Shown piece after piece: positions 21,250 through 36,739 of a stretch of DNA of 64,000 bases (its first letter is position 1; every line of letters begins with the position of its first letter). A model generated the notes under the pieces. The model did no database searches, was not told the origin of the DNA, and saw nothing but the letters and a program-made list of their open reading frames with translations. Location: contig JAHFPV010000004.1 of NCBI GenBank assembly GCA_023266575.1, positions 124,001 to 188,000 on the forward strand, given 5' to 3'. Made by a program: the position numbers and the translations under genes. The stretch comes from Sphingobium sp. Its GTDB lineage: Bacteria > Pseudomonadota > Alphaproteobacteria > Sphingomonadales > Sphingomonadaceae.

Positions 21250-21662
21250 TGGGCGATCAGGCGGATCAGGCGCTGGCGATCGCCAATCTGAAGGCCCGTT
21301 ATTGCGCCGCGGCCGACCTGTCGGCCAGCAACCCGGATCAGGCGCGCCGCTTGCTTGCCGATATATTCGCGGACAATTTCGTCGGTGACTACGGTGCTGG
21401 CCTGCTCCATGGCGGACAGGCGATCACCGATTTCCTCTGCACCGCGATCAGCGCGAACAGTCTGTGGATGATCCATATGCTCCATTCGCCCCGCATCGCA
21501 ATCGACGGCGACCGCGCGACCGGCGACTGGACCGTGCTGGGCCATATGAAGCGGCGCGCGACCGGCGCGATCGACAGCGTCGTGGGCCGCTATAGCGACA
21601 TTTTCCGCCTGACCCCAACGGGCTGGCGGATCGAGCGGGTGACCTTCACCCGTCTGCAATAA
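21249..21662 (+). CDS. NTF2-like/SnoaL-type small protein
   Basis: The 137-residue protein has the cone-shaped NTF2 pattern: an N-terminal helix LKARYCAAADLSASNPDQA, LLHGGQAITDFL, and the closing strand GWRIERVTFTRL. Family members are isomerases, cyclases or dehydratases such as ketosteroid isomerase and SnoaL. It is translationally coupled to the acyl-CoA synthetase through TGATG and precedes an SDR. The function cannot be assigned more closely. Confidence 0.8.
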   Translation: MGDQADQALAIANLKARYCAAADLSASNPDQARRLLADIFADNFVGDYGAGLLHGGQAITDFLCTAISANSLWMIHMLHSPRIAIDGDRATGDWTVLGHMKRRATGAIDSVVGRYSDIFRLTPTGWRIERVTFTRLQ

Positions 21663-21684: not shown

Positions 21685-22446
21685 ATGGCCGATCGTTTCA
21701 GCGGCAAGACCGTGCTGATCACCGGCTCCGCAGGCGGGCTGGGCCGCGCCCATGCGCTGGCGTTCGCGGGGGAGGGCGCACATCTCATCCTTGCCGACAT
21801 CAACGAAGCAGGACTGGCGGAGAGCAAGGCGCTGGTCGAGGCGCTGGGCAGCACCGCGTCGGTCCACCGTGTCGACATGGGGCAGGAAGCTGACATCACG
21901 GCCTTTGCCACCACCGTGCTGGCCGCGCATGACCGGCTCGACGTGCTCATCAACAATGCAGGCCTTCATGCGGGCGAGATTGCGCGCGGCTTCTTCGGCC
22001 TTGGCATGGCGAAATGGCAGCATTTTTTCGCGGTCAACACGTTCGGCCCAATGCTGCTGGCCGAAGCGCTGCGCCCCGCGCTGGCCCGCGCCAAGGGCGT
22101 CATCATCAACAAATGCTCGATGGCCAGCTATAATCCCGCGACCGCCTATGGCATCACCAAAGCGTCGCTCAATGTTTTCACCCACGCCATGGCGCAGCAA
22201 TTCGGTGCGGATGAGATACGCTGCGTCGGCATCGCGCCGGGCCTGATGGAAACCGAAGCTGCCTTGCAAGGGGTCGCCCCTGCCAATTGGGAGCGGCTGA
22301 AAGCCATGCAGTCGGTCAAGCGGCAGGGGACGGCACAGGACATCTCCAACCTCGCCCTGTTCCTCGCCTCCGACGAAGGCAGTTTCGTCAATAATCAGGT
22401 CATCCTGTGCGACGGCGGCAACCAGATGCGCGGCTTTCGTTTCTGA
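21685..22446 (+). CDS. Short-chain dehydrogenase/reductase
   Basis: A 253-residue SDR with TGSAGGLGRAHALAF, NNAGLHAG, a serine in NKCSMASYNPA, YxxxK in YGITKASL, and IAPGLMET. AAGGACAAGAGG precedes the ATG. It sits inside the TetR operon 22 bp behind the NTF2-like gene. Oxidation of a hydroxyl on the CoA-bound or free substrate is likely, but its specificity is unknown. Confidence 0.9.
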   Translation: MADRFSGKTVLITGSAGGLGRAHALAFAGEGAHLILADINEAGLAESKALVEALGSTASVHRVDMGQEADITAFATTVLAAHDRLDVLINNAGLHAGEIARGFFGLGMAKWQHFFAVNTFGPMLLAEALRPALARAKGVIINKCSMASYNPATAYGITKASLNVFTHAMAQQFGADEIRCVGIAPGLMETEAALQGVAPANWERLKAMQSVKRQGTAQDISNLALFLASDEGSFVNNQVILCDGGNQMRGFRF

Positions 22447-22565
22447 TCGCATTGCCCCGGCGATCAATCGGCCGTGTGCCTCCAAGCCTCTGGCGCGCCG
22501 TCCCGGTCCATGCTGGATTGGCGCCAAACAAGCGCCATAGCGCGCGTCGTCAGAGGGCAGAGGCC

Positions 22566-23348
22566 ATGAACCAGCATACCACTATCCACCTGCACAACGT
22601 CCCCGCCGGGCGAGAGGCTGACTATGCCGCCTGGTTCGACGGCCCGCATCGCGACGACCTTGCCCGTTTGCGCGGTTTCCGCTCGGCTGACCGCTACGAG
22701 GTCACGCCGCAGCAGATCATGCCCGACATTCCCCAGCCCTGGCGCTATATGAGCGTCTATGAACATGACACGGCGACCCCGGAAATAGACCTGCCTGCGC
22801 TTGCCCCCTTGCTGGCGCAGGCGCGCGACGCAGGCCTGATCGACGACAGCGACGAAAGCGAGCGCATTCACAGCTACGCCATGTATGCCGACTGGGCGTT
22901 CAGTCCCAATCATCGCCCCGACCAGCCCTTCTCCGGGGTCAGCATCATTCTGGCCAATTTCGTCGCCGGGCGGGAAGCGGAATATCATCACTGGTATGAC
23001 ACGGTCCATTCCCCCGAAGTCACCCGCGTGCCCGGCAAGGTCGGCATGAAGCGCGGTCGCCTGTCGCCGGTGCAGCTGGAACCCAAACGCTATTGCCCCG
23101 GCAGCGACCTGATATTGTGCGCGCAGCAAACCGACGACCTGCTCTTCACCGTCAAGGATTTCAGCGCCCGCGCCCGCGGCGTCAGCCCCAGCGGCGTCGC
23201 CTTCGCGCCGCGCTCCGCCTCCGGTTCGGTCGCGCGCACCGTCCATTATTTCGCCAAGGTCAGCGGCACGCATTTCTGGCCCGGCGGCATCGCCTATGAT
23301 GGCGACCTGTCCGTCTATCCCGCCGACTTTGCGCGCCCTGCGGGCTAG
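22566..23348 (+). CDS. EthD/dimeric alpha-beta-barrel-like protein with internal duplication
   Basis: The 260-residue protein contains two related halves: VPAGREADYAAWFDGPHRDD (about residues 10-29) and VAGREAEYHHWYDTVHSPEV (about 138-157), each followed by an arginine-rich loop. Each half looks like an EthD-type ferredoxin-like barrel, so one chain would mimic a dimer. Such proteins assist oxidative degradation in some ether and polyketide systems, but the role here is unknown. The start at 22566 is chosen because the upstream in-frame residues are low in complexity and arginine-rich. It follows an SDR after a 119-bp gap. Confidence 0.65.
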   Translation: MNQHTTIHLHNVPAGREADYAAWFDGPHRDDLARLRGFRSADRYEVTPQQIMPDIPQPWRYMSVYEHDTATPEIDLPALAPLLAQARDAGLIDDSDESERIHSYAMYADWAFSPNHRPDQPFSGVSIILANFVAGREAEYHHWYDTVHSPEVTRVPGKVGMKRGRLSPVQLEPKRYCPGSDLILCAQQTDDLLFTVKDFSARARGVSPSGVAFAPRSASGSVARTVHYFAKVSGTHFWPGGIAYDGDLSVYPADFARPAG

Positions 23349-23447
23349 CGCCAAGCAGCTATCGCGCGCGCGATGGCCAGCCCCCTTGCCGCGCGCGCGC
23401 CGGTGCGGGAAGGAATGAAGCGACAATCAGGACAAGCGGAGCAGGAT

Positions 23448-24185
23448 ATGGCCAAGACGATCGTGATCACAGGCGCCGGCGATGGCCTTGGCCGCGCGCT
23501 CGCCCGCCGATTTGCGCGCGATGGCGAAACCGTCATCCTGCTTGGCCGCACCTTGTCGAAGGTCGAAGCGGTCGCGGCGGAACTGGGCGCGCCGCATCTC
23601 GCCCTGCAATGCGATGTCGGTGATCCTAACTCGGTGCGCACCGCATTCGCGGCAATCGCCGCGCAGCATGGGCGCATCGACGTCCTCATCAACAACGCCG
23701 CCGTCTATGAACCCTTCACCCTTGCCGAAGTGTGCGACGACCAGATTGTCACGTCGCTGATGACCAACGTCGCCGGGCCGATCCATTGCGCCCGCGAGGC
23801 GCTGCCGCTGCTGCGCGGCGGCGGGCATATCATCAATGTCAGCAGCGAATCCGTCGCGCTCAAAATGCCGATGCTGTGGATGTATGCCGGCGGCAAGGCG
23901 GCGCTGGAGTTGGTATCGGACATGTGGTCGCGCGAACTGGAGGCCGACGGCATCCGCGTCACCACCGTCCAGGCAGGCATGATGATGGATGAAACCAAGA
24001 CCGGCAGCAGCTGGCCGATCGACGTGTCGATGCGCTTTGGCCAGGAAAATGCCAAGGTCGGCATCAACCTGCGCGAACGTGGCATCAGCCATTATAACAG
24101 CGTGACGGACGCTTTTCGCGCCATCCTCGACATGCCCGCCGACCTGCACATGGGCATCGTCGCCCTCAACGCGCGCAAGCGCTGA
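23448..24185 (+). CDS. Short-chain dehydrogenase/reductase
   Basis: A 245-residue SDR: VITGAGDGLGRALARRF, NNAAVYEPF, NVSSESVALK and YAGGKAAL, where the YxxxK tyrosine and lysine are in place. The start ATG at 23448 puts the cofactor motif at residue 6, as usual; an upstream in-frame start would add 25 atypical residues. It belongs to the same rightward run as the surrounding genes. The substrate is unknown. Confidence 0.88.
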   Translation: MAKTIVITGAGDGLGRALARRFARDGETVILLGRTLSKVEAVAAELGAPHLALQCDVGDPNSVRTAFAAIAAQHGRIDVLINNAAVYEPFTLAEVCDDQIVTSLMTNVAGPIHCAREALPLLRGGGHIINVSSESVALKMPMLWMYAGGKAALELVSDMWSRELEADGIRVTTVQAGMMMDETKTGSSWPIDVSMRFGQENAKVGINLRERGISHYNSVTDAFRAILDMPADLHMGIVALNARKR

Positions 24186-24222: not shown

Positions 24223-25689
24223 ATGGCCATTCTTCCCGACGCCAAACTTTTCATCGACGGCGCGTTGCGCGACGCACAGGGCGGCGCGACCTTCGACGTC
24301 ATCAGCCCCTGGACCGGTGAGCCGGTCGGCAAGGCCGCCGATGCGTCGGCCGCCGATGTCGAAGAGGCGATAGCCGCTGCCCGCCGCGCCTTCGACACGA
24401 CCGACTGGTCCACCAATGTCGAAAAGCGCGTCGAACTGGTGACGAAGCTCCGCGCCCTGTTCGAGGAAAATCGCGAACGGCTCTCGGACCTGGCCCGGAA
24501 TGAAGCTGGCGCGGCGATCGGCGCGGTCGGGCGCGCTCATGTCGATATGGCGCTCGATGGCTGGGACGATTATCTGCGCCTCTTCCCGCAATTGAAGTGG
24601 GACAAGGATTATGGCGGCCGCACCGGCTATGGCTTCGAAACCCAGCGAAAGGCGGTCTATGAACCCGTCGGCGTCGTTGGCGCGATCACGCCATGGAACG
24701 TGCCGCTCTATGTGAATGTGGGCAAGGTCGTTGCAGCCTTGCTGGCGGGCTGCACCGTAATTCTCAAGCCCGCGCCCAACACGCCTGGCATGGGCGCGAT
24801 CTTCGGCGAACTGGCGCGCGAAGCAGGCTTCCCCGCCGGCGTCCTCAACGTCATCTTCGGCAGCGATCCGGCACTGGCCGGCGAAATGCTGGTCACTGAT
24901 CCCCGCGTCGATCTCATCTCCTTCACCGGCTCCACCGGCGTTGGCAAGCGGATCATGGAACAGGGGGCCGCGACCCTCAAGCGCGTATTTCTGGAGCTTG
25001 GCGGCAAGTCGGCCAAGATCGTGCTGGAGGACAGCGCCAATTTCGCCATGGATGTTGCCCAGTCGATGCTGGTGTTCCACGCGGGGCAGGGCTGCGCCGT
25101 CCATTCGCGCCTGCTGGTGCCGCGCAGCCGCTATGAGGAAGCCAAGGCGGTCCTCAAGCACGCCTATGCCAGCTTCGGCGACAATTGGGGCGACTATGAC
25201 AATCCCGCGCACATCATGGGTCCGGTCGTGTCGAAGCGGCAGATGGAGCGGGTGCTGTCCTATGTCGACATCGGTGTCGCCGAAGGTGCAACCTTGCTGG
25301 CAGGCGGCAAGGCGCGGCCCGACAAGGGGACAGGCTATTTCATCGAACCGACCTGCTTTGCGGATGTGACCAATGATATGCGCATCGCCCAGGAAGAGAT
25401 TTTCGGCCCCGTCCTGGTGGTCATCCCGTTCGAGGATGATGACGACGCCGTCCGTATCGCCAATGAAAGCGCCTATGGCCTGTGCGGCGGCGTCTTTTCC
25501 GCCGATTTGGACCGCGCCATGGCGGTGGCCAAGCGGATACGCACCGGATCGGTCAGCGTTAACGGCGGCATGTGCATCGCGGGAGACTTGCCTTTTGGCG
25601 GATACAAGGCCAGTGGCATCGGTCGCGAATGGGGTCTGGAGGGAATCGAGGAATTTCTCGAAACCAAGCTGATCGCATGGCGCGCCTGA
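24223..25689 (+). CDS. NAD(P)-dependent aldehyde dehydrogenase
   Basis: The 488-residue ALDH has ITPWNVPLY, SFTGSTGVGKRI, the general-base glutamate in ELGGKSAKI, the catalytic cysteine in AGQGCAVHSR and EEIFGPVL. An AGGA ribosome site lies 8 nt before the ATG. It is 37 bp behind an SDR, so an alcohol-to-aldehyde-to-acid sequence is possible (inference). It differs clearly from the ALDH at 798 and is not a recent duplicate. Confidence 0.94.
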   Translation: MAILPDAKLFIDGALRDAQGGATFDVISPWTGEPVGKAADASAADVEEAIAAARRAFDTTDWSTNVEKRVELVTKLRALFEENRERLSDLARNEAGAAIGAVGRAHVDMALDGWDDYLRLFPQLKWDKDYGGRTGYGFETQRKAVYEPVGVVGAITPWNVPLYVNVGKVVAALLAGCTVILKPAPNTPGMGAIFGELAREAGFPAGVLNVIFGSDPALAGEMLVTDPRVDLISFTGSTGVGKRIMEQGAATLKRVFLELGGKSAKIVLEDSANFAMDVAQSMLVFHAGQGCAVHSRLLVPRSRYEEAKAVLKHAYASFGDNWGDYDNPAHIMGPVVSKRQMERVLSYVDIGVAEGATLLAGGKARPDKGTGYFIEPTCFADVTNDMRIAQEEIFGPVLVVIPFEDDDDAVRIANESAYGLCGGVFSADLDRAMAVAKRIRTGSVSVNGGMCIAGDLPFGGYKASGIGREWGLEGIEEFLETKLIAWRA

Positions 25690-25711: not shown

Positions 25712-26449
25712 GTGAGCGCAAAGGCGGAAGCGGCGGTGGAGCAGGGGGCAACCAGACCGTCCCGCACGCGCGCGCCCGCTGCGACCAAGGCGCTCAGCCA
25801 TAATCTGAATGGCCAGCGGCTGGGACGCAAGGGGCGCGACACGCGCGACCGTATCCTGGCCGCGACCAACGAACTGCTGGCCGGTCCCCCCGACGTCGAG
25901 ATTTCACTGAGCGCGGTCGCGCGCCAGACCTCGCTCGGCATGACGTCGCTCTATAATTATTTCAACGATCTGACCGAATTGCTGCTCGCGGTGCTGGAAC
26001 CGGTGATGGCGACGGCTGAGGATGAATATGTCGGCCTGCTGCGCACCCGCTGGGACGACGCAGATCTGGGTGAGCGGACATTGGCGTTCGTCACCGCCTA
26101 TCATGGCTTCTGGGTCAAACATTCGCGCCTGCTCCATTTGCGTAACCGCATGGCCGACGCGCAGAATGAGCGGATGATGATGCATCGTGTCCGCGCGGCC
26201 CAGCCGGTCATGCGGCTGATGGTCGAACAGATGGACGGCGAACTGGCGCAGCCGCAATCGCCGGTATTCAGCATGGCGACCGCGCTGATGACGGGGCTGG
26301 AACGTATCGTCACGGTGACGACCGACGTTGCCCTGCAAAACACGTTGCACGCGCCCAACCCGCTCGGCCGCACCCATTTGCTGCGCGCCGAAGCGCGGCT
26401 GCTGGAACTGGGTATTCGCGACTACCGGACGCTCGCCGCGTCGTCCTAA
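25712..26449 (+). CDS. TetR-family transcriptional regulator
   Basis: The 245-residue protein begins at GTG with AAGGA nearby. After about 35 low-complexity residues comes a TetR HTH: DRILAATNELLAGPPDVEISLSAVARQTSLGMTSLYNYFNDLTELL (quoted by key parts: SAVARQTSLG and SLYNYF). The rest is an unclassified ligand domain. It is last in the rightward operon and its 3' end overlaps the convergent enoyl-CoA hydratase gene by 4 bp. Confidence 0.9.
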   Translation: MSAKAEAAVEQGATRPSRTRAPAATKALSHNLNGQRLGRKGRDTRDRILAATNELLAGPPDVEISLSAVARQTSLGMTSLYNYFNDLTELLLAVLEPVMATAEDEYVGLLRTRWDDADLGERTLAFVTAYHGFWVKHSRLLHLRNRMADAQNERMMMHRVRAAQPVMRLMVEQMDGELAQPQSPVFSMATALMTGLERIVTVTTDVALQNTLHAPNPLGRTHLLRAEARLLELGIRDYRTLAASS

Positions 26450-27246
26450 TCCTTCCTGCCGCCAACACCCTTCAGATAGCGCTCCATCCCTTCCAGATAG
26501 GCCGGGTTCAGCATCAGCGCGCTATTGGCCATCCGCTCGACATGGCGGCCCATGGACGGTCCGACTTCCGCCGCCAGCTCGATCGCGATCTTGGCCGCGC
26601 CCATCTGTTCGGCATTCTGCTTGGTCAGGTGACGACAGAAATTCAGTGCTGCCTCGTCAAACCCCTCGTCGGGCAGCACGTCATGCACCAGCCCCATGAT
26701 GAGCGCACGGTCGGCGTCAGCGCGCTGGTTGCCCATGATCAGCCAGCGCGCCCAATGCGGCCCGCAGATGCGCGTCAGGCGACTGACGCCATTGGACGCG
26801 GGCAGCACGCCGAACAGGCCTTCGGGGAAGGAGAACGCCGCGCTCTTCGCCGCCAGCCGGAAATCGCATGACAGCGCCATTTCCAGCCCGCCGCCCACAC
26901 AGGTCGCATGAATGGCGCTGACGATCGGCTTTTCGATATGCTCCATCTCGTCATAGATGCGCTGCATCCCGTTGAGGTTGAGCCGGTGGTTCTCGCGAAT
27001 GCCCGATGGCGTGCGCGGATAGGCGGGCGCGTCCCCGCTTTTGAGGTCTGCGCCCGAACAGAAATAGCGCCCGGTCGCCCGGATCAGCATGACCCGCAGT
27101 TCCGGCGTATCGCGGAACCGCAACAGCGCCTGCTCGAACAGCGCCATCGTCTGCGCCGACAGCGCATTCAGCTTGTCGGGCCGGTTCAGCGTCACGATCA
27201 GGATGCCGTCCTGATCCTCGCTCAACAGATGCGGGGCGTCGCTCAT
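26446..27246 (-). CDS. Enoyl-CoA hydratase/isomerase family protein
   Basis: The 266-residue crotonase-fold protein has the oxyanion pieces FCSGADLKSGD and THATCVGGGLEMALSCDFRLA. In typical hydratases two glutamates follow; here the first site lies in the SFPEGLFGVLPASNG region (a glutamate in PEGLFG). It would hydrate or isomerise an enoyl-CoA produced by the upstream double acyl-CoA dehydrogenase, 10 bp away on the same strand. GAGGA precedes the ATG. Confidence 0.9.
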   Translation of the reverse strand: MSDAPHLLSEDQDGILIVTLNRPDKLNALSAQTMALFEQALLRFRDTPELRVMLIRATGRYFCSGADLKSGDAPAYPRTPSGIRENHRLNLNGMQRIYDEMEHIEKPIVSAIHATCVGGGLEMALSCDFRLAAKSAAFSFPEGLFGVLPASNGVSRLTRICGPHWARWLIMGNQRADADRALIMGLVHDVLPDEGFDEAALNFCRHLTKQNAEQMGAAKIAIELAAEVGPSMGRHVERMANSALMLNPAYLEGMERYLKGVGGRKD

Positions 27247-27256
27247 ATCATCATCC

Positions 27257-29467
27257 TCAGGCGCGGGTGCGCGGCAGGCCTAGCGCACGCTCGGCGATCA
27301 TGGAACGATGGACCTCGCTTGTCCCGCCATAAATGGTCGTGCCCTGGGCATGGCGGTAGAACATGTTGATCTCCGCCGCCGCGCCCTTGCGCTTGGACAG
27401 CGACAGCGGCGCCGTCAGGTCCAGCAGGTCGCGGGCATCGCTCTGGAATTTTTCGGAGCTGAACATCTTGGCCATCGGACCATAGGCCAGGTTTGGCTTC
27501 TTCTCCATGCTCGCCCAATTGGCGCGGAAGGCGATCAGTTCCGACACCCACAGATTGGCGGCGGTGCGCGCCAGCCGCGCCTGCGCGCCCTCATCCTCGA
27601 TCAGTGGCCTGCCCTTGTGGCGTATCTCCCGGCACAGCGTTTCGGCCGCGTGCAGCATGGCGCGCTGATATTTGGCAAAGCCGCCGCCATGCTCCAGTTC
27701 AAGGCTCGCGCTCATCGTGCGCACGCCGCCATCAATCTCGCCCAGCCGCCAACTGTCGGGGATGCGCACCCCGTCATAGAAGGTGATGTTGGTGCGCTCG
27801 TCCTGAAATGTGTAGACCGGCTGGATCGTCACGCCATCGGCCTTCAACGGCACGATGAACATGGTCAGCCCTTTATGCTTGGCGACTTCCGTATTCGTCC
27901 GGCACAGCATCAGCACATAGGTGGACAGGTTCGCCCCGCTGGTGAACATCTTGGTGCCGTCGATCCGCCAGCTGCCGTCGGGCTCCTGGGTGGCGCGGCA
28001 TTGCGCTGCGAACACGTCGGACCCGGAACCCGGCTCGGAATAGCCCAGCGAACAGATCACCTCGCCGCGCATGATTTCCGGCAGGACCGCCGCTTTCAGT
28101 TCCTCGCTGCCGAACCGGTGGATGATCAGCGCCACCATCTGAGTCACACCCGCGGCAGGGTTGTTATAGCCCTGCACCTCGAACGCATCCATCGCGGCGG
28201 TCTTTTCATAGGCGGACAGGCCACGCCCGCCGACATCCTTGAGCAGGCCCAGATAGAGGAGATTCTGCTCTGCCAGCTTGCGGTTGAGTTCGGGGCTATA
28301 GCCCTCCCAGCTATAGTGGAATGTCTCGCGCATGTCCGGCGTGACGTTCGCTGCGAAAAAGGCCTCGATCTCCTGCGTGATCGCCCGTGCATCCTCGCCC
28401 AGATCGAAATCGACCGGCATCGCGCCCGCGTCGGGCAGGGCGGCGGCTTCTCCGCCGTAAAGGCGTCTACCGGCCTCGGCGATCAAAGCTTGCGGATCGC
28501 CCAGCACCAGCGGCCAAGCCTTGGCCCGCAGGTTGAACAGGAAAATATCATATTCGGTGGTCAGGCCATAGCCGCCGAACGTGTGCAGCGCTTGGCCCAC
28601 CGCGCGGCTTGCCGCATCGCTGTTCCACCATGCCGCGATGCTGATTGCAGCGCCCGCTTGCGGCGCACCATCGGCCAGATCGCGGATCGCCTTCCACACC
28701 AGAAACTTGCCGCCATCGACATCGCAGAGCAGATCGGCGAGCGGATGAGAAATGGCCTGAAACTGGCCGATATACTGGTCGAACTGCTTGCGCTCGCAGG
28801 CATAGGCTGCCGCGAGTTTCAACGCTTCGCGCCCGATCCCGGCGAGGCCCGCGGCGATCAGCAGCTTCCATTCCTCGACCCCGGCGGCAAAGGTTGCCAG
28901 CGCTTCTGCACCCGACGCCAGCGTCACGCGCGGGTGCGCCAGCAGGTCGATCTCCGCTATCGGCGTGGAGGCCAGATTATCCTCCGCGATCCGCCCCGTA
29001 TCAGGCACACTGATCAGGACGATCTCCTCGCCCATGCGCGCGATCACGGCCTGCACCACTTGTCCGCCGCCGATCCATTGGACCGGTTCGACCGCCACAT
29101 CGTGGAACGCCAGACTGGCAACCGCCTCGCCGCTAACGACCTGTGCCAACAGCGTTGCACCGACGTCACCGCCCAGTTGTGCCAGCAGGCGCGCGGTCAC
29201 CAAAGTCTCGGCCATCGGCCCCGACGCCAGCGTCCGGCCAGCTTCCTCCATCAGGATCGCAGCATCGAACAGGCCAAGGCCCAGCCCGCCCGCTTCCTCC
29301 GGCACGCGGATCGACAGCGCCCCCAGTTCGGCCAGCCCCGACCACAGCGCAGGGTCGAACCCCGACGGCGCGGCCTCACGCACGCGGGCCATGCTGCTAT
29401 GTTCATCCAGAAAACGCGCGAACATGTCGCGCATCATTTCCTGGTCGTCGGTCAGGTCGAAATTCAT
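27257..29467 (-). CDS. Fused double acyl-CoA dehydrogenase (two ACAD units in one chain)
   Basis: At 736 residues it is twice the usual ACAD length. Residues 1-~345 form a short-type ACAD unit (DLTDDQEMMRDMFARFLDEH to the HTFGGYGLTTEYDIFLFNLR end), without the flavin-site SEPG motif. Residues ~355-736 form a full unit with CSLGYSEPGSGSDVFAA, GTKMFTSGA and IYGGTSEVHRSMIAERALG. This resembles the fused FadE34/ChsE3 type of M. tuberculosis, where a heteromeric pair is joined. It would desaturate a bulky acyl-CoA with FAD. The usual catalytic Glu position in the last motif is glycine, as in heteromeric ACADs. It is co-transcribed with an enoyl-CoA hydratase and an SDR. Confidence 0.88.
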   Translation of the reverse strand: MNFDLTDDQEMMRDMFARFLDEHSSMARVREAAPSGFDPALWSGLAELGALSIRVPEEAGGLGLGLFDAAILMEEAGRTLASGPMAETLVTARLLAQLGGDVGATLLAQVVSGEAVASLAFHDVAVEPVQWIGGGQVVQAVIARMGEEIVLISVPDTGRIAEDNLASTPIAEIDLLAHPRVTLASGAEALATFAAGVEEWKLLIAAGLAGIGREALKLAAAYACERKQFDQYIGQFQAISHPLADLLCDVDGGKFLVWKAIRDLADGAPQAGAAISIAAWWNSDAASRAVGQALHTFGGYGLTTEYDIFLFNLRAKAWPLVLGDPQALIAEAGRRLYGGEAAALPDAGAMPVDFDLGEDARAITQEIEAFFAANVTPDMRETFHYSWEGYSPELNRKLAEQNLLYLGLLKDVGGRGLSAYEKTAAMDAFEVQGYNNPAAGVTQMVALIIHRFGSEELKAAVLPEIMRGEVICSLGYSEPGSGSDVFAAQCRATQEPDGSWRIDGTKMFTSGANLSTYVLMLCRTNTEVAKHKGLTMFIVPLKADGVTIQPVYTFQDERTNITFYDGVRIPDSWRLGEIDGGVRTMSASLELEHGGGFAKYQRAMLHAAETLCREIRHKGRPLIEDEGAQARLARTAANLWVSELIAFRANWASMEKKPNLAYGPMAKMFSSEKFQSDARDLLDLTAPLSLSKRKGAAAEINMFYRHAQGTTIYGGTSEVHRSMIAERALGLPRTRA

Positions 29468-29485: not shown

Positions 29486-30313
29486 TTATTGCGCTGGCGC
29501 GGAACGGCGCATCATGACGCTCAGGTCGACCTGTCCGGTGGCGACCCCGCCCATGAAGCCGCCATCGACCGGGAACACCACGCCATTGACGATGCTGGCC
29601 AGATCACTGTTGATCAGCACCAGCCCGGCGGCCTGTTCCTCCGGCGTCGAATAGCGACCCATCGGTTCAGCCGCCGCTGCGACGACCTCCTTGCCCGACG
29701 TCGCCTCGAATGCGGCCATCATCGGCGTCTGGGTCGGGGAGGGCAGGGTGCAGTTGATGCGGATGCCCTGCTTGATCAGGTGCGCGCCCATATACTGGGT
29801 CCACACGATCACATTCTCCTTGGAGAAGCTGTAGCCTTCCTTGACTGTGTCCATGTTGGCGTCGCACCAGGCTACCGCTTCGTCAAAGCCCTTGGTCGTC
29901 ACAAATTCCATATTGGTGGGAATCCGGCGGCTCCAGCCCAATCCGCCCGTGGATGCAATGCTGGCGATCGCCCCGCCCGGCCCCATCAGCGGCAGCACCT
30001 GCTGCGTCAGATGTCGCAGGCCGATGAAATTGACCTTCATCACGTCCATCGCGGGGAAGGATTGCGGCAGGCCCGCGCAGTTGAACAGCGCGTCCACCTT
30101 GCCGCCGATGCCCGCGACCGCCGCGTCGATGGAGGCGGGATCGCGCAGGTCGACATTGTGGAAGGAGGCAAGCGGCAATGCGCTGTCCTTATAATCCAGC
30201 CCATGCACCTCTGCGCCCAGCTCCAGCAACAGCTTTGCCGTTGCCTCCCCCATACCGGAAAAGCAGCCGCTCACGATGACGCGCTTGCCCTTATAGCCCA
30301 ATAGGTCGCTCAT
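29486..30313 (-). CDS. SDR of the coniferyl-alcohol/3-alpha-hydroxysteroid dehydrogenase type
   Basis: The 275-residue SDR has VSGCFSGMGEATA, NCAGLPQS, SIASTGGLGW and an atypical YSFSKENVIVW active-site helix with tyrosine and lysine in place. The short cofactor domain, the long region between the serine and YSFSKE, and the late PVDGGFMGG resemble the SDR group annotated as coniferyl-alcohol dehydrogenase or 3-alpha-HSD/carbonyl reductase. It lies 23 bp behind a ferredoxin gene and 18 bp ahead of the double ACAD gene. The substrate is unknown. Confidence 0.82.
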   Translation of the reverse strand: MSDLLGYKGKRVIVSGCFSGMGEATAKLLLELGAEVHGLDYKDSALPLASFHNVDLRDPASIDAAVAGIGGKVDALFNCAGLPQSFPAMDVMKVNFIGLRHLTQQVLPLMGPGGAIASIASTGGLGWSRRIPTNMEFVTTKGFDEAVAWCDANMDTVKEGYSFSKENVIVWTQYMGAHLIKQGIRINCTLPSPTQTPMMAAFEATSGKEVVAAAAEPMGRYSTPEEQAAGLVLINSDLASIVNGVVFPVDGGFMGGVATGQVDLSVMMRRSAPAQ

Positions 30314-30336: not shown

Positions 30337-30567
30337 TCAGGCTTTGGCCGCTGGGGGCCAGCTGATGCTGCCATCATCTTCCTCGACAAAGATGATCCGC
30401 TCCGGGCAGGCCCGCGCGCCATTTTTTGCGGCGCGCTCCTCGCCCTCCGGCACGTCGAAACCTTCGGTGTCGATGTAGCCATCGTCATCGAGCGGATAGA
30501 GGGTTTCCGACACAGCGGCGCAGCGGGCATTGCCCACGCAACCGGCCCTTTCGATACGAATTTTCAT
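30337..30567 (-). CDS. [3Fe-4S] ferredoxin, P450-associated type
   Basis: The 76-residue acidic protein has cysteines at 10, 16 and 54 (AGCVGNARC and ARACPE), the ligands of a single [3Fe-4S] cluster as in P450-linked ferredoxins. Lacking a fourth cysteine between positions 10 and 16, it cannot bind a normal 4Fe-4S. It is transcribed away from the neighbouring P450 gene (divergent), and is the likely electron donor to it. No ferredoxin reductase gene is in the window. Confidence 0.88.
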   Translation of the reverse strand: MKIRIERAGCVGNARCAAVSETLYPLDDDGYIDTEGFDVPEGEERAAKNGARACPERIIFVEEDDGSISWPPAAKA

Positions 30568-30783
30568 GGGGTCTCTCCCGCAAAGCTTGCTGTCCTTAGA
30601 AAGGAGAAAGATGTGTCGATCAACATGGCCATCCGCTCAATCGCCGCCACGATACGGCGGCGGCACTGCGAGCGCGTCTATCGTCGGTGCGGTATCATGG
30701 GTCGATGCGAGACCGACATTTGCCTTTGGCGGCGCTGCGCGCGACACCGGTTGTAACAAGATGCAGGATTGCCGGAGATTCAC
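30568..30783. promoter_or_regulatory. Divergent promoter region, ferredoxin and P450 genes
   Basis: The 216-bp spacer between the leftward ferredoxin operon and the rightward P450 operon must carry both promoters. I see GC-rich partial repeats around 30650-30670 but no clear regulator site. The P450 ATG at 30784 is preceded by GGAG. Confidence 0.5.
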
Positions 30784-32037
30784 ATGGTCCACGCCGCCCT
30801 AAGCCCCGCCGCCCCCAAGCCCGTCCATGTGCCGGACGCGCTGGTCTTTGATTTCGATATCCATGCTGATCCCGGCCTGCTGGCCGATCCGCACGCCCGC
30901 ATTCTCGACCTGCTGCACAGCGCGCCGCCGGTATTCTGGACCCCGCGTAATGGCGGCGGCTGGGTTGCGCTGACCCATGCGGCCAATCATGAAGCCTCGC
31001 GCGACACCGAAACCTATTCCAGCGAATTTGTGCCGCAGGACAGGATGAAGGCACTGCTCGCCTCGCTGCCGCCCGGCGCGCCGCACATCCCGCAGCCGAT
31101 TCCGATCACGCTCGATCCGCCCGAACACACTAAATATCGCCAGCCGCTGCAAAAGGTGTTTTCGCCCAAGACGATCGCCGCGTTGCGCGACAGCATCCGT
31201 GAGCTGGCCGCTGCCCTGATCGAAGAGATGAAGCCCGTTGGCCGCTGCGAATATATGACCGCCGTCGCCGAACCGCTGCCGGTGCAGGTGTTCCTCAAAA
31301 TGCTCGGCCTGCCGCTCGACCGGCTGCCCGAATATCGCGCCATCGTGAAGGAGCATATGGAGGCGATCGACAGTGATCGCGAAGGCTCGATGCGCCGCTT
31401 GCAAAAGATCGCGGCGGCCATGCGCGACACTGTGCTGGACCGGCGCGACAATCCGCGCGATGACATCCTCTCGATGCTGTGGAAGCTGGAAATTGACGGT
31501 CAATCGACCACGCTGGCCGACATGGAAAATTACGGGGTGCTGCTGTTCATCGCTGGGCTGGACACGGTGATGAACGGCATGGGGCTGGCCATGCGCGGCC
31601 TGGCCACCGACCTGCCGCTGCAACACAAGCTGCGCGAAAATCCAAAGCTGATCGCCGAAGCCGCCGAAGAGATGCTGCGGCGCTACACCTTCACCGTGCC
31701 GATGCGGATCGTGAAGAAGGAAGCGCAGCTTGCCGGTGCGACATTGATGCCGGGCGACTGGCTCAAACTCTTCCTGCCCGCTGCCGATCTGGATGCGAAG
31801 GAATTTCCGCAGCCCGACGTCTATGACCTCGATCGCGAAAATAACGTCCATATCGCCTTTGGCGTCGGCCCGCATCGCTGCCTTGGGTCGCACCTTGCCC
31901 GCGTGGAATTGCAGGTACTCTATGAGGAGATGCTGGCGCGGATGCCCGAATTCCGGCTCGATCCCGATCAGCCGACGGTGTTCCATGGCGGTCATGTCAT
32001 CGGCATTGAAAGCCTGCATCTGGTCTGGGACGTCTGA
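30784..32037 (+). CDS. Cytochrome P450
   Basis: The 417-residue bacterial-type P450 has the I-helix oxygen motif AGLDT (residues 257-261), the K-helix ExxR (E296-R299), and the heme ligand Cys366 in FGVGPHRCLGSHLA. It inserts oxygen into an unactivated C-H bond using electrons from a ferredoxin, probably the divergent [3Fe-4S] protein. An in-frame TTG at 30769 is a weaker start; the ATG has GGAG 7 nt upstream. The three following genes start within 4 bp of each preceding stop, so one transcript is likely. Confidence 0.93.
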   Translation: MVHAALSPAAPKPVHVPDALVFDFDIHADPGLLADPHARILDLLHSAPPVFWTPRNGGGWVALTHAANHEASRDTETYSSEFVPQDRMKALLASLPPGAPHIPQPIPITLDPPEHTKYRQPLQKVFSPKTIAALRDSIRELAAALIEEMKPVGRCEYMTAVAEPLPVQVFLKMLGLPLDRLPEYRAIVKEHMEAIDSDREGSMRRLQKIAAAMRDTVLDRRDNPRDDILSMLWKLEIDGQSTTLADMENYGVLLFIAGLDTVMNGMGLAMRGLATDLPLQHKLRENPKLIAEAAEEMLRRYTFTVPMRIVKKEAQLAGATLMPGDWLKLFLPAADLDAKEFPQPDVYDLDRENNVHIAFGVGPHRCLGSHLARVELQVLYEEMLARMPEFRLDPDQPTVFHGGHVIGIESLHLVWDV

Positions 32038-32040
32038 CCC

Positions 32041-32445
32041 ATGGCCTGGCAACGCTCCCGTCCGCGCCTCGACCGGGAAAACCGCGCTTTCTGGACGGGT
32101 GGCGCGGACGGGAAATTGCATATCACCCGCTGCGGCGATTGCGGCCAATATACCCATCCGCCGCGCGAGATATGCCGCCATTGCCAGTCTGAAAATGTCG
32201 CCCCCCATGCCGTGACGGGGACCGGCACGATCGACACCTACACCGTCAATCATCAAGCCTGGGCCAAGGATATGGACGTCCCCTTCGTCATCGCGCGGGT
32301 GAAGCTGGACGATGCGCCGGGCGTCTATCTGACCACCAATATCATTGGCAGTCCGGTCGATGCGGTGGACATAGGCGATCGGGTGGAGGTGCTGTTCGAG
32401 GAACAGGACGGAATCTGGTTCCCCTTGTTTGAAAAGGTCGCCTGA
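32041..32445 (+). CDS. DUF35 zinc-ribbon/OB-fold protein (acyl-CoA-binding type)
   Basis: The 134-residue protein has a rubredoxin-like zinc ribbon, CGDCGQYTHPPREICRHC (about residues 31-48), then an OB-fold (GTGTIDTYTVNH to FEEQDG). DUF35 proteins partner thiolase-like enzymes; in steroid degraders ChsH2-type DUF35 domains activate the Ltp2 aldolase. The next gene, 2 bp later, is such a thiolase-like protein, so the two very likely form a complex. Confidence 0.9.
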   Translation: MAWQRSRPRLDRENRAFWTGGADGKLHITRCGDCGQYTHPPREICRHCQSENVAPHAVTGTGTIDTYTVNHQAWAKDMDVPFVIARVKLDDAPGVYLTTNIIGSPVDAVDIGDRVEVLFEEQDGIWFPLFEKVA

Positions 32446-32447
32446 TC

Positions 32448-33611
32448 ATGGCGCAACCCGAAGCCTATATCACCGGCATCGGCATGTCCGACGTCGGCGT
32501 CCGCCTGACCCGTTCGCCCCTGTTGCTGACGGTCGATGCGGTGCGCGAAGCCATTGCCGACGCTGGCCTGACCCTCGACCAGATTGACGGCGTCGCCACT
32601 TATCCCGGCAAGATGCCGAGTTTTCTGGGCTTTTCCCCCGTCAGTTCGGACGATCTGATCGAGGTGCTCGGCCTGAAAACCCGCTGGCATATCGGCGCAG
32701 CGGAATCGACTGCGCAATTGGGCGCGATTATCGAAGCCGCCAATGCGGTGAAAGCGGGGCTGGTCCGCCATGTTATCTGCTTCCGTACCGTCTATGAAGC
32801 GGCAGCCCTGGCCCGCCCGGAAGAATTCCCGCCGATGGAACGGCGCAAGGATGTGTCGGGCAACTCCCAATGGGTGTCGCCTTTCGGCGCTTTCTCGGCC
32901 GCGAACTGGACCGCGCAATTCGCGATGCGCCACATGAAGCGCTACGGCCTGACCCGCGAACAACTGGCGCAAGTGGCGCTCAACGACCATGCCAATGCGG
33001 CCATCAACCCGCGCGCGCTGGTCAAGAAGCCCCTGACGATGGACGATTACATGTTCGCGCGGATGATCAGCACGCCCTTCTGCCTCTATGATTGCGACCG
33101 CTTTACCGATGCCTCGACTGTCGTGATCGTGTCGGCGGGCGAGGCGTTGGGGGATGTGAAAGCCACGCCCATCCGCATCGCCGCCAGCGCCGGATCGGTC
33201 GAACGCTATAGCTGGGACCAGGCCGAATGGGCGGGTGCCTATCCCACCGGCCGAGACCTGTGGCGCCACACCGATTATACGGTCAAGGACGTCGATACCG
33301 TCCAGCTCTATGATGGTTTCGCCTTCCAGCCGATCACCTGGCTCGAAGGGCTGGGCTTTTGCGACGTGGGCGAGGGCGGCCAGTTTCTGGAAGGCGGCAC
33401 CCGCATCGCCCGCGACGGCGCATTGCCGATGAACACCGGCGGCGGTCAGCTTGGCTGGGGTCGTCTCCATGGTTTTGGCTTCGCCTATGAAGCCGTCGTC
33501 CAGTTGCGCGGGCAGGGCGGCGCACGCCAGATTGGCGGTGATCCCCGCGTCGCCATCGCGACATCAGGCGGCGGTCCCATGGCGGCGGCTTTGCTGCTGG
33601 CCAAGGACTGA
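32448..33611 (+). CDS. Thiolase-like lipid-transfer protein (SCP-x/Ltp2 type)
   Basis: The 387-residue protein has the thiolase fold with AYITGIGMSDVG at the start, VREAIADAGLTLDQIDGV, and NTGGGQLGWGRLHGFGFAYE near the end. The position of the nucleophilic thiolase cysteine reads IGAAESTAQLG, without cysteine, as in Ltp2-type enzymes that cleave C-C bonds by a retro-aldol reaction instead of thiolysis. It follows the DUF35 partner and a P450. It probably removes a side-chain fragment such as propionyl-CoA or acetyl-CoA from a CoA-activated substrate (inference). Confidence 0.87.
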   Translation: MAQPEAYITGIGMSDVGVRLTRSPLLLTVDAVREAIADAGLTLDQIDGVATYPGKMPSFLGFSPVSSDDLIEVLGLKTRWHIGAAESTAQLGAIIEAANAVKAGLVRHVICFRTVYEAAALARPEEFPPMERRKDVSGNSQWVSPFGAFSAANWTAQFAMRHMKRYGLTREQLAQVALNDHANAAINPRALVKKPLTMDDYMFARMISTPFCLYDCDRFTDASTVVIVSAGEALGDVKATPIRIAASAGSVERYSWDQAEWAGAYPTGRDLWRHTDYTVKDVDTVQLYDGFAFQPITWLEGLGFCDVGEGGQFLEGGTRIARDGALPMNTGGGQLGWGRLHGFGFAYEAVVQLRGQGGARQIGGDPRVAIATSGGGPMAAALLLAKD

Positions 33612-33613
33612 GC

Positions 33614-34351
33614 ATGATGGACAGCGCGACGCTCGACGCGCTGCCCGGCTTCCGGCGGCGCCTGCGCGTCACGCCCTCGCCGGGACAGGTGATTGCGGCG
33701 CTGGAGGATGATTATCACTGCATGGCGGTTACCCTGCGCCATGACGGCGCGGTCATTACCGGCGTCGAATCCGTCATGGAGCGCGTGCCATGGACCACCT
33801 GTCCCGGCGCGCCCGCAGTGCTGGCGGCAACCTTCAACGGCGTCGCATTGGCCGATGTCGCCGCACGCGGCGAAAAGAAAGCCAACTGCACCCATCTCCA
33901 CGACCTGACCGTGCTGGCGGCGGCCCATATAACCGATACCCACCCCACCCTCTATGACATCGTCACCTGCGATCCCGTCGATGGGATGGCGATTGCCGAA
34001 ATCCGCCGCAACGGCGTGGCCTCGCTACAGGTCGCCCATCGCAACCATGTGATGGAAGCCCCTGCCGCCATTCCTGGCCTGTCGATCATGAAGCTGCGCG
34101 ACTGGATCGAGGGGCTGGATGGCCGGCAACGCGAAGCCGCCAAATTGCTGCAATGGGGCGCGATCCTGGCCAATGGTCGGCTGATTCCGATGGAGCGGCA
34201 ATCCACCGCCAGCCGGGTGCCACCCAACTGCTTTACCTTCCAGCCCGACAATGCGGCCAAGGCCGTGTGCGTCGGCAAGGTGATCGACTTCACCGCCGCG
34301 CCACTGACCCCGCTCGATCATTTTGACGGGGCCAGTTTCTCCTCCCGCTAG
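33614..34351 (+). CDS. DUF2889 family protein
   Basis: The 245-residue protein has conserved pieces of DUF2889: YHCMAVTLRHDGAVITGVE, PWTTCPGAP and KKANCTHLHDLTVLA. The cysteine in TTCPGA and the Cys/His pair NCTHLHD suggest a metal or catalytic site, but no function is known. It ends the P450/DUF35/Ltp2-like transcript, starting 2 bp behind the Ltp2-like gene. Its 3' end overlaps the small leftward gene by 4 bp. Confidence 0.78.
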   Translation: MMDSATLDALPGFRRRLRVTPSPGQVIAALEDDYHCMAVTLRHDGAVITGVESVMERVPWTTCPGAPAVLAATFNGVALADVAARGEKKANCTHLHDLTVLAAAHITDTHPTLYDIVTCDPVDGMAIAEIRRNGVASLQVAHRNHVMEAPAAIPGLSIMKLRDWIEGLDGRQREAAKLLQWGAILANGRLIPMERQSTASRVPPNCFTFQPDNAAKAVCVGKVIDFTAAPLTPLDHFDGASFSSR

Positions 34352-34620: not shown

Positions 34621-34760
34621 GCGCGTCCTTCTCCATCATCCCAGTTTGGGCAGCCACCCGGCCATTGCAAGGCACCGCCCACATATCGCCCCGGCGAGTT
34701 GACCAATTGCCCCTGAGCGCCAATTCAAGGAGGCATCCCATTGGCCATCTTGAGGACATC

Positions 34761-35756
34761 ATGGCAGAGCTGAGCAACGCCCCGGCGCCTACCCCGGACC
34801 AGCTGGTAGATATCTACCGGCGCATGATCCGTATCGAGCGCAACGACGACGCCATCCGCAAGACCATTCGCCTTGGGCGGCTGGTCATGCCTTATTATTC
34901 GGCGCGTGGGCAGGAAGTGATCCCCGCCACCCTGTCATCGCTGATGACCGACGATGACAAGATCTGCACCATCTATCGCGGCATCCACGACATGGTGGCG
35001 AAAGACATGCCGCTGCGCCCGCTCTGGGCGGAAATTGCGGGCCGGGTCGATGGCACATGCAAGGGGAAGGGCGGACCGATGCACCTTACCCACCCCGAAA
35101 GCGGCGTGATGGTCACGACCGGCATTGTCGGCTCCTCCATGCCGATCGCCAACGGTCTGGCCTGGGCGGCCAAGCTGGATGGCTCCAAGCGCGTCACCAT
35201 CGCCTATTTCGGCGATGGCGCATCCAATATCGGTGCCTTCCATGAATCGCTCAATCTGGCGTCGGTGTGGAAGCTGCCGGTGATTTTCGTGTGCCAGAAT
35301 AATGGTTTTGCCGAACATACGCGCTACGAAAATGGCACATCGGTCGACTTCATCGCCAAGCGCGCGATCGGCTACGGGATGCCGGGCCACACCGTGGACG
35401 GCAATGACCCGCTGGCGATGTTCGCCGCCGCACATGAAGCGATCACCCGCGCCCGTGAAGGCGAGGGGCCGACGCTGCTGGAGTGCAAGACCTTCCGCTT
35501 CCATGGCCATGTGCTGGGCGACGACGACAAATATATGACCAAGGAAGAGAAAGCGGCGGCGATCGCCAAGGATCCGCTGCCCGCCTTCAAGACCTGGCTG
35601 GTCGAACAGGGCCACGCAACCGAGGAGTCGCTCGCCGCGATGCAGGCCACCATCGAAGCCGAGATTGAGGACGCACAAGAATTCGGTCTCGCCAGCCCCT
35701 TGCCATCGGTGGACGAACTCCGCCGCGATGTTTTTGCGCAGGAGATCCCGGCATGA
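34761..35756 (+). CDS. 2-oxoacid / acetoin dehydrogenase E1 component, alpha subunit
   Basis: The 331-residue E1-alpha has the complete thiamine diphosphate motif GDGASNIGAFHESLNLASVW...QNN, the KGKGGPMHL stretch typical of acetoin and pyruvate dehydrogenase alpha subunits and FRFHGHVLGDD with the phosphorylation-loop-like region. The start ATG has GAGGA upstream; an earlier in-frame start would add 32 atypical residues. It overlaps the beta-subunit gene by ATGA. No E2 or E3 gene is nearby, which is unusual. It may act on a branched or side-chain 2-oxoacid or acetoin-like compound from the surrounding pathway (inference). Confidence 0.92.
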   Translation: MAELSNAPAPTPDQLVDIYRRMIRIERNDDAIRKTIRLGRLVMPYYSARGQEVIPATLSSLMTDDDKICTIYRGIHDMVAKDMPLRPLWAEIAGRVDGTCKGKGGPMHLTHPESGVMVTTGIVGSSMPIANGLAWAAKLDGSKRVTIAYFGDGASNIGAFHESLNLASVWKLPVIFVCQNNGFAEHTRYENGTSVDFIAKRAIGYGMPGHTVDGNDPLAMFAAAHEAITRAREGEGPTLLECKTFRFHGHVLGDDDKYMTKEEKAAAIAKDPLPAFKTWLVEQGHATEESLAAMQATIEAEIEDAQEFGLASPLPSVDELRRDVFAQEIPA

Positions 35757-36739
35757 GCGCGAAGAAGATGAACAGCCTTCAGGCCGTCAATGCGGCGCTG
35801 CATCAGGCGATGGCTGAAGATGACAAGGTGATCGTGCTGGGTGAGGATATCGCCGATCGCGAAGGCGGCGGCGTCACCGGCGCGACGGCTGGCCTGTCGA
35901 CCAAATTCGGCGATGACCGGGTCAAATCGACCCCGATTTCGGAACAGGCGATCATCGGTGCGGCCATCGGCGCGGCGCTGGCGGGTTACAAGCCGGTCGC
36001 CGAAATCATGCTGATGAACTTCACGGCTGTGGCCATGGACATGATCTTCAACCATGCCGCCAAGCTGCGCTTCATGTCGGGCGGGCAAAGCACCGTGCCG
36101 ATCACCATCCGCACCCTTACCGGCGCAGGCTGGCAGACGGCGGGCCAACATGCCGACCATCTGGAAGGCTGGTTCGCGCACACGGCGGGGATCAAGGTGG
36201 TCGCGCCCTCCAATCCGGTGGATTATAAGGGGCTTCTGCTGTCCTGCATTCAGGACCCGGACCCCTGTATCTTCATCGAATCCGCAGGCTCACTGTTCAT
36301 CCCGGCCGACGTCCCAGACGATCTCGCCCCCATCCCCTTGGGCAAGGCGCGGGTGGTGCAGGAAGGCAGTGACGTCACCATCATCTCCTGGTCCTCGCAG
36401 GTCATTCGCTGCCAGCAGGCGCTGGCTCCGCTGGCGGAAGCGGGCATCTCGGTCGAACTGATCGACCTGCGCACGGTGTCGCCCTGGGACAAGGAAGCCG
36501 TGCTGGCCTCGGTCACCAAGACGGGCCGCGCCGTCATCGCCCATGAAGCGGTGCGCCATTTCGGCCCCGGCGGCGAAATCGCATCGACTATCAGCGAAGA
36601 ATTGTTCGGCCAGTTGAAGGCACCGGTCCGTCGCCTCGGCGCGCCTTACTCGCCTGTGCCTTTCGCCAAGGTGCTGGAGGACGCCTATATCGTCTCGCCC
36701 GATCAGGTGGTCGAAACGGTCAAGGCACTGATGGCCTGA
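35753..36739 (+). CDS. 2-oxoacid / acetoin dehydrogenase E1 component, beta subunit
   Basis: A 328-residue transketolase-like beta subunit: VLGEDIADREGG, FGDDRVKSTPISEQAIIGAAIGAAL, the pyrimidine-binding stretch and the C-terminal transketolase domain with GPGGEIASTISEELF and RLGAPYSPVPFA. It pairs with the alpha subunit through an ATGA overlap to make a 2-oxoacid decarboxylase. It ends 9 bp before a strong 12-bp stem that terminates the unit. Confidence 0.92.
   Translation: MSAKKMNSLQAVNAALHQAMAEDDKVIVLGEDIADREGGGVTGATAGLSTKFGDDRVKSTPISEQAIIGAAIGAALAGYKPVAEIMLMNFTAVAMDMIFNHAAKLRFMSGGQSTVPITIRTLTGAGWQTAGQHADHLEGWFAHTAGIKVVAPSNPVDYKGLLLSCIQDPDPCIFIESAGSLFIPADVPDDLAPIPLGKARVVQEGSDVTIISWSSQVIRCQQALAPLAEAGISVELIDLRTVSPWDKEAVLASVTKTGRAVIAHEAVRHFGPGGEIASTISEELFGQLKAPVRRLGAPYSPVPFAKVLEDAYIVSPDQVVETVKALMA

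Follow-up and report, generated by a model that had tools for sequence, protein, structure and literature searches.

What reaction is encoded where a cytochrome P450 gene runs directly into genes for a DUF35 protein, a thiolase-fold protein without the thiolase nucleophile and a DUF2889 protein? The question is raised by a locus of Sphingobium sp. (Sphingomonadaceae, Alphaproteobacteria; GenBank assembly GCA_023266575.1), analyzed here within a stretch of 64,000 nucleotides (contig JAHFPV010000004.1, positions 124,001 to 188,000 of the forward strand), hereafter termed the window. As a preliminary description made from the sequence alone had noted, the four genes are tightly packed: all are on the plus strand, separated by 3, 2 and 2 bp, and Pfam names each of the encoded proteins:

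30769-32037, plus strand: cytochrome P450 (Pfam p450; heme, ExxR and AGxDT motifs; nearest solved relatives in the CYP101 family)
32041-32445, plus strand: stand-alone DUF35 protein (Zn ribbon and OB fold), presumed aldolase partner (Pfam zf-ChsH2 and OB_ChsH2_C)
32448-33611, plus strand: thiolase-fold protein of Ltp2/Sal type, no nucleophilic Cys (Pfam Thiolase_C_1; signature Glu86, YDGF at 288-291, Arg339)
33614-34351, plus strand: DUF2889 protein, divergent catabolic subfamily (Pfam DUF2889, 25.6 bits versus a cut-off of 25)

The locus probably encodes a beta-oxidation-like pathway in which the Ltp2-like and DUF35 proteins finally cleave a non-steroid acyl-CoA by a retro-aldol reaction; the four genes would form its distal arm.

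The Ltp2-like protein and its DUF35 partner

The best solved matches of the two proteins are the two chains of one structure, the steroid C3 side-chain retro-aldolase TcLtp2-ChsH2(DUF35): the Ltp2-like protein matches TcLtp2 (PDB 6ok1_A, E 5.9e-44) and the DUF35 protein matches ChsH2(DUF35) (6ok1_B, E 1.3e-15). The bile-acid C5 aldolase CtSal-CtShy (PDB 9myr), described as likewise a DUF35-bound thiolase-fold aldolase with a catalytic tyrosine (PMC12329534), is present in both match lists. The zinc site of the window DUF35 is CX2CX10CX2C, a C4 motif found in all 56 homologues of at least 50% identity, in contrast to the C3H1 site of CtShy. The protein is stand-alone, whereas ChsH2 combines its DUF35 domain with a MaoC domain (PMC8399759). 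With a zinc ribbon, an OB fold and a gene beside that of the aldolase, it is predicted to be a partner of the ChsH2 type.

Position 87 of the Ltp2-like protein, which corresponds to the thiolase nucleophile, lacks Cys in all 73 distinct homologues of at least 40% identity (56 of at least 60% and 17 at 40-59%), which bears out the earlier claim that the nucleophilic cysteine is missing; the same place is without Cys in TcLtp2. In principle the protein could still be a thiolase or a Claisen-type acyltransferase (compare BbsAB and PhlC) that uses another cysteine. The thiolase fold and the DUF35 partner are indeed as in BbsB and PhlC/PhlB, and close relatives keep three invariant cysteines (111, 216 and 305). 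All three align with cysteines of TcLtp2, a characterized aldolase, so that the catalytic cysteine elsewhere in the protein that would have overturned the preliminary description did not emerge, and the HDAF of a solved thiolase (7yvy) is YDGF in the Ltp2-like protein. Together with the constant lack of Cys at position 87, these features make an acyltransferase of this kind very improbable.

The active site appears to be a variant of the known aldolase kind, with the acid residues of the two characterized types replaced. The catalytic residues are reported to be Tyr294 and Tyr344 in TcLtp2, and Tyr302 and Cys304 in CtSal, where the equivalent of Tyr344 is Gln352 (PMC12329534). Tyr294 of TcLtp2 corresponds to Tyr288 of the window protein, the tyrosine of the YDxx motif that is present in all homologues of at least 60% identity (56/56) and at 40-59% (17/17). 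By contrast, the YDHF and Tyr344 of TcLtp2, like the YDCY and Gln352 of CtSal, are YDGF and Arg339 in the window protein, and the place of Cys304 is Gly in 73 of 73 homologues of at least 40% identity. Glu86, which adjoins the place of the thiolase nucleophile in alignments, completes a signature of Glu86, YDGF and Arg339 that is found in 56 of 56 distinct homologues of at least 60% identity. Homologues at 40-59%, including Rhodococcus, Mycobacterium and Massilia plasmids, have YDGF and Arg in 17 of 17 and Glu in 15 of 17; among the 19 rows below 40%, YDGF with Arg occurs only in L084, without the Glu.

A tree of 54 rows (one in four of the homologues of at least 60% identity kept, along with the window protein, and the distant row L051 left out) places the 32 signature rows in a clade of their own (100/99), TcLtp2 in another (100/99) and CtSal outside both; when L084 is added, the resulting 33-row group has support of 93/28. 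Long branches leave the deepest placements unsure. The window protein thus belongs to the Ltp2/Sal family by its homology to TcLtp2 and CtSal and its loss of the nucleophilic Cys, and is neither Ltp2 proper (YDHF and Tyr344, TcLtp2 clade) nor Sal proper (YDCY with the catalytic Cys). Three sphingomonad paralogues (L083, L085 and L087) have mixed Sal/Ltp2 residues, namely the Cys of a YDCF motif and a tyrosine of the Tyr344 type.

With strong homology on both sides, the DUF35 and Cys-less Ltp2-like proteins are likely to form a retro-aldolase pair and to catalyze retro-aldol cleavage. To this extent the preliminary description, which envisaged an undescribed side-chain cleavage system, stands: literature searches turned up no published description of this cluster. 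Its further proposal, that the pair acts on the product of the P450, fares less well.

P450, ferredoxin and the route to the aldolase substrate

In phmmer searches the P450 is closest to CYP101J2 and then to P450cam, and a strict heme pattern is found in 24 of 38 P450 homologues, that of the window included. A [3Fe-4S] ferredoxin had been counted as part of the same cassette. The ferredoxin is real, with a Fer4_15 match and a CxxNxxC...CP motif, and its gene is on the opposite strand; thus it stands outside the packed group of four and in the window belongs to a separate minus-strand operon divergent from the P450:

30337-30567, minus strand: single-cluster ferredoxin, probably [3Fe-4S] (Pfam Fer4_15; CxxNxxC...CP motif)
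29486-30313, minus strand: SDR2, coniferyl-alcohol dehydrogenase family (NF009092, 294.9 bits versus a cut-off of 242)
27257-29467, minus strand: fused two-domain acyl-CoA dehydrogenase (ACAD), 736 amino acids (Pfam; resembles two-subunit steroid side-chain ACADs)
26446-27246, minus strand: crotonase-family enoyl-CoA hydratase (Pfam ECH_1)

The CxxNxxC motif, with Asn at the variable site, is kept in 35 of 35 ferredoxin homologues of at least 50% identity, and all examined variable-motif ferredoxins of this sort are reported to have contained a [3Fe-4S] cluster (PMC6237146). Crotonase orthologues adjoin the fused ACAD in relatives. The C-terminal half of the ACAD best matches Tcur3483 and its N-terminal half Tcur3481, the two chains of 6wy8/6wy9, which we take to have a role in steroid side-chain degradation.

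Two routes to the 3-hydroxyacyl-CoA can be considered. In one, the P450 itself would hydroxylate the acyl-CoA at the beta position, and its product would go straight to the aldolase. In the other, the hydroxyl would arise by dehydrogenation and hydration. Among 44 Ltp2-DUF35 loci with enough flanking sequence for a count (six more had too little), P450 and ferredoxin are both present in 29, P450 only in four, ferredoxin only in two and neither in nine. In favor of the direct route, the P450 immediately precedes DUF35 in 33 of the 44 loci (29 with ferredoxin, four without), P450 and DUF2889 stand together without DUF35/Ltp2 in L180 and L217, and 17 of the 29 loci with P450 and ferredoxin have no fused ACAD of at least 50% identity in the fetched stretch. 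By contrast, all nine loci that lack both P450 and ferredoxin hold the fused ACAD (compared to 12 of the 29 with both).

The ACAD is moreover found beyond the loci. Of 23 loci with P450 or ferredoxin and no nearby ACAD, the genomes of all except L173 and L234 were searched, and an ACAD homologue was present in 21 of 21: eleven at 58-77% identity, one in two pieces (65-66%) and nine at only 43-46%, which are perhaps paralogues and so leave the direct route some room. The genome-wide presence of ACAD homologues weakens the notion that the P450 and the ACAD/hydratase pair are alternative routes to the 3-hydroxyacyl-CoA. Dehydrogenation and hydration thus appear the more likely source of the beta-hydroxyacyl-CoA, and the role most likely for the P450 is an early and optional one. 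A precedent is the P450 EdcA of estradiol degradation, which is reported to hydroxylate estrone, with beta-oxidation-like enzymes, an aldolase included, proposed to act later (PMC7793797). Direct action of the aldolase on a P450 product is therefore improbable.

The edc operon OpA of Caenibius tardaugens is the nearest described system in content, as compared by description only (PMC7793797). Like the window, it sets a P450 beside genes for ChsH2-like and lipid-transfer proteins in a sphingomonad; it has in addition ECH-, BadI-, thiolase-, HMG-CoA-synthase-, HADH- and ACAD-like genes and a divergent ring-cleavage operon, and the main text of the paper, as available, contains no word starting with DUF. 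Its locus-tag order and divergent promoter imply a transcription order of Ltp, DUF35 and P450, the reverse of that in the window. By OpA/OpB gene content, with sequences not compared, the window does not hold an edc estrogen operon. Deletion of an igr-like operon in C. tardaugens is reported in a 2026 paper to have left growth on bile salts unaffected (PMC12882949). A search for edc operons by way of HMG-CoA synthase (PF08540) in 397 genomes found nothing, and one candidate contig, L259, proved to be another cluster. A further comparison is offered by IpfD and IpfE of ibuprofen degradation, presumably SCPx-like and DUF35-like proteins. In this system, also of a sphingomonad, an oxygenase-hydroxylated acyl-CoA is described as undergoing retro-aldol cleavage, with a dioxygenase in place of the P450 (PMC9195938); the likeness is by description, not sequence.

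DUF2889 and its link to the aldolase genes

Membership of the window protein in PF11136 rests on a score just above the cut-off and on the conserved residues of the family. Canonical DUF2889 proteins, by contrast, match the whole Pfam model at 110-158 bits; they occur in 40 of 398 genomes of the phylum, the window's genome included, and have R15, D32, H35, P59, C63, G76, C92, H94 and C206 in common with the window protein (20 of 20 canonical rows). Six of these residues (D32, H35, C63, C92, H94 and C206) are found in 22 of 22 subfamily rows as well as in the 20 canonical rows; in 12 intermediate rows, D32 and H35 are kept in 11 and the other four in all 12. This conservation across both arms of the family points to a common putative active or metal site. 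In the papers found to mention the family, its function is not given in the text available.

The DUF2889 subfamily is tightly linked to the Ltp2/DUF35 cluster. A wider scan of named genomes, centered on DUF2889, yielded 315 relatives, and the best 80 of these define the 80 loci compared here, some of which duplicate genomes of the other samples. The gene directly before DUF2889 is Ltp2 in 51 of the 80 loci, a figure inflated by the centering of the scan, P450 in two, DUF35 in one and another gene in 25, with a contig edge in one. A test of 21 genomes from the remaining 29 loci found the same Ltp2 elsewhere in 19 (68-80% identity), a match of only 45% in one and none at E<=1e-60 in another. Within a sample of 249 genomes of the bacterial family, a DUF2889 homologue at E<=0.001 is present in 25 genomes. 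At E<=1e-35, DUF2889 is present in 13 and this Ltp2 (at least 65% identity) in 10, with both in eight, an association of Fisher p 1.7e-10 that ignores relatedness.

Canonical DUF2889 keeps other company. No Ltp2 or DUF35 was found within about 10 kb at the 20 places examined of 41 other places, and four annotated neighborhoods (L140, L131, L134 and L133) hold recA-recX/sucCD, DHQ synthase, MoeA/MobA and malic enzyme, neighbors that give no hint of chemistry. The family may thus have housekeeping and catabolic arms. The preliminary description would have given way had DUF2889 proved to lie mainly away from such genes; this is so for the canonical arm and not for the divergent subfamily, which goes with them.

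Might DUF2889 be a mere passenger, or a small regulator, rather than an enzyme of the pathway? It is the least conserved of the four genes, with 46-66% identity in compared relatives where Ltp2 has 66-93%, and genome G051 (L146), which is missing from the set of 25 genomes matched by DUF2889, keeps the cluster without it. Set against this are its unchanged position in the 51 loci, the presence of the Ltp2 subclade in 19 of 21 genomes in which the two are unlinked, and the polar residues kept across both arms. A passenger or regulator is on balance unlikely.

The conserved cluster, its substrate and the proposed pathway

Further genes of the cluster lie upstream on the plus strand:

25712-26449, plus strand: possible TetR-like regulator (weak match only, NF008402 E 8.5e-5; no Pfam match)
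24223-25689, plus strand: aldehyde dehydrogenase nearest the Rv0768 family (Pfam; TIGR04284 558.6 bits, below the cut-off of 775)
23373-24185, plus strand: SDR oxidoreductase SDR1 (Pfam)
22407-23348, plus strand: conserved protein u22407 (open reading frame taken from the first start codon; no match in Pfam and NCBIfam searches at E<=0.001)
21685-22446, plus strand: SDR oxidoreductase SDR0 (Pfam; present in L057-L059)
21249-21662, plus strand: conserved 137-amino-acid open reading frame, family f48 (conservation in relatives; no match in an NCBIfam search at E<=1e-60)
19567-21249, plus strand: AMP-forming acyl-CoA ligase (Pfam; kept in L057-L060)
18561-19544, plus strand: AcuI-type acrylyl-CoA reductase (NCBIfam NF051456, 539 bits versus a cut-off of 440; kept in L057-L060)
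17865-18557, plus strand: TetR-family regulator (Pfam; syntenic in L057 and L059)
15119-17542, plus strand: TonB-dependent receptor, probable uptake gene of the cluster (Pfam; syntenic in L057 and L059)

This is a real catabolic cluster of a soil bacterium, conserved in many proteobacteria. The full order (SDR1, aldehyde dehydrogenase and TetR-like gene; crotonase, fused ACAD, SDR2 and ferredoxin; P450, DUF35, Ltp2 and DUF2889) is found again in L032, where SDR1 sits in the adjoining stretch L057, and in L034; L033 and L036 have the same order without P450 and ferredoxin, L031 is a cluster cut by a contig end, and L037, L038 and L040 are partial. Upstream, AcuI and the ligase are placed as in the window in four relatives, and the TonB receptor and TetR gene in two. 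Carriers in the 80-locus scan include Sphingobium, Novosphingobium, Solimonas, Zhongshania, Steroidobacter and others, with one locus, L160, almost the same as the window; Sphingobium sp. RAC03 has the same genes on a plasmid, annotated by family only. The order P450, DUF35, Ltp2 and DUF2889 recurs at high identity in several genera, which makes the grouping more than chance. In 15 of the 80 loci, nearly all gammaproteobacterial, the genes for ferredoxin, SDR2, P450, DUF35, Ltp2 and DUF2889 follow on one strand. Matches of at least 45% identity are found among the 80 loci for SDR2 in 42, the aldehyde dehydrogenase in 38, SDR1 in 35 and u22407 in 20. A u22407 homologue adjoins DUF2889 in L177, a genome without the subclade Ltp2 at E<=1e-60.

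Other genes are found near the cluster. In relatives, a second block behind DUF2889 comprises Amidohydro_2, IclR, CoA ligases, class III CoA-transferases and a thiolase; its orthologues in the window's own genome are together on another contig, C14 (L257:9808 to L258:14862), so that the pathway seems split in this genome. In G051 (L146:7839-9167), an Amidohydro_2 gene lies directly behind Ltp2. Directly downstream of DUF2889 in the window is an E1 alpha/beta pair of a 2-oxoacid dehydrogenase (34665-36739); E1 homologues near the same Ltp2 subclade in three fetched stretches (L148, L174 and L227) suggest that the pair could form part of the pathway in some of its versions.

A classical steroid side-chain pathway of the igr/Sal type would account for the best solved matches of Ltp2, DUF35 and the fused ACAD, all of which are steroid side-chain proteins, and for Steroidobacter among the carriers. 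Of the features of an igr-type operon, the fused ACAD and the Ltp2-like protein are present; a crotonase adjoins the ACAD, in the place where ChsH1/H2 or Shy have MaoC domains. KshA_C (PF19298) has no match at E<=0.001 in the window's genome, which is 99.96% complete and by this measure is not that of a 9,10-seco steroid degrader. Among 13 genomes tested, 10 of which carry the Ltp2 subclade at 65% identity or more, seven (the window's included) have no KshA_C match, five score over the cut-off and one has a weak partial match; thus the 9,10-seco route is not shared by carriers in general. A review reports that Chol11, a bile-acid degrader, and related Sphingomonadaceae yielded no Sal/Ltp2 homologues (PMC8399759). 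A steroid is an unlikely substrate, an igr/Sal-type pathway is distinctly improbable, and the steroid analogy of the preliminary description is not favored. The families of the ligase, the heteromeric-type ACAD and the retro-aldolase suit a bulky or beta-branched acyl-CoA.

In the pathway preferred here, the substrate would be a non-steroid, probably cyclic or branched, acyl compound. As the protein families suggest, the ferredoxin and P450 would hydroxylate it, an SDR and the aldehyde dehydrogenase would oxidize it further and the ligase would form the CoA ester. The fused ACAD would then yield a 2-enoyl-CoA, to be hydrated by the crotonase to the 3-hydroxyacyl-CoA. In a complex with DUF35 that resembles TcLtp2-ChsH2(DUF35), the Ltp2-like protein would break the C2-C3 bond by a retro-aldol reaction and release acetyl- or propionyl-CoA together with an aldehyde or ketone. 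Tyr288 would be the conserved base and Glu86 and/or Arg339 the proposed acid, since neither the Cys of CtSal nor the Tyr344 of TcLtp2 is available. More speculatively, DUF2889 may be a cluster-specific partner enzyme with a Cys/His/Asp site, perhaps metal-binding, that works next to the aldolase step.

Several observations weigh against this pathway. The catalytic Tyr344 of TcLtp2 and the catalytic Cys304 of CtSal are both replaced, and the chemistry may have changed with them. The AlphaFold2 (AF2) model of the Ltp2-like protein is of low confidence (pLDDT 48.7, from 16 input sequences that are perhaps too alike), so the geometry of the active site is not visible. G051 dispenses with DUF2889 altogether. 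The AF2 model of DUF2889 is confident (pLDDT 93.4, pTM 0.91); however, a Foldseek comparison with the PDB gave query TM-scores of at most 0.30 among the best 50 rows, mostly MHC-like, the BFVD gave no match at E<=0.001, and a fold assignment was dropped as neither held a convincing structural relative.

A bolder form of the proposal is possible and tentative, with the odds against it: that the pair is a third catalytic type of DUF35-dependent retro-aldolase (Glu/Tyr/Arg), that DUF2889 is its dedicated partner, with a new Cys/His/Asp- or metal-based reaction on the substrate or product of the aldolase, and that both serve a widespread pathway for natural cyclic or isoprenoid acids.

If the proposed pathway is true, Cys-less aldolases bound to DUF35 extend beyond steroids. 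Steroid aldolases are wanted as biocatalysts (PMC12329534), and the replacement of the acid residues of both characterized types makes the catalysis of this family directly testable. One arm of DUF2889 would likewise be tied to a definite gene neighborhood, where deletion and assay become possible.

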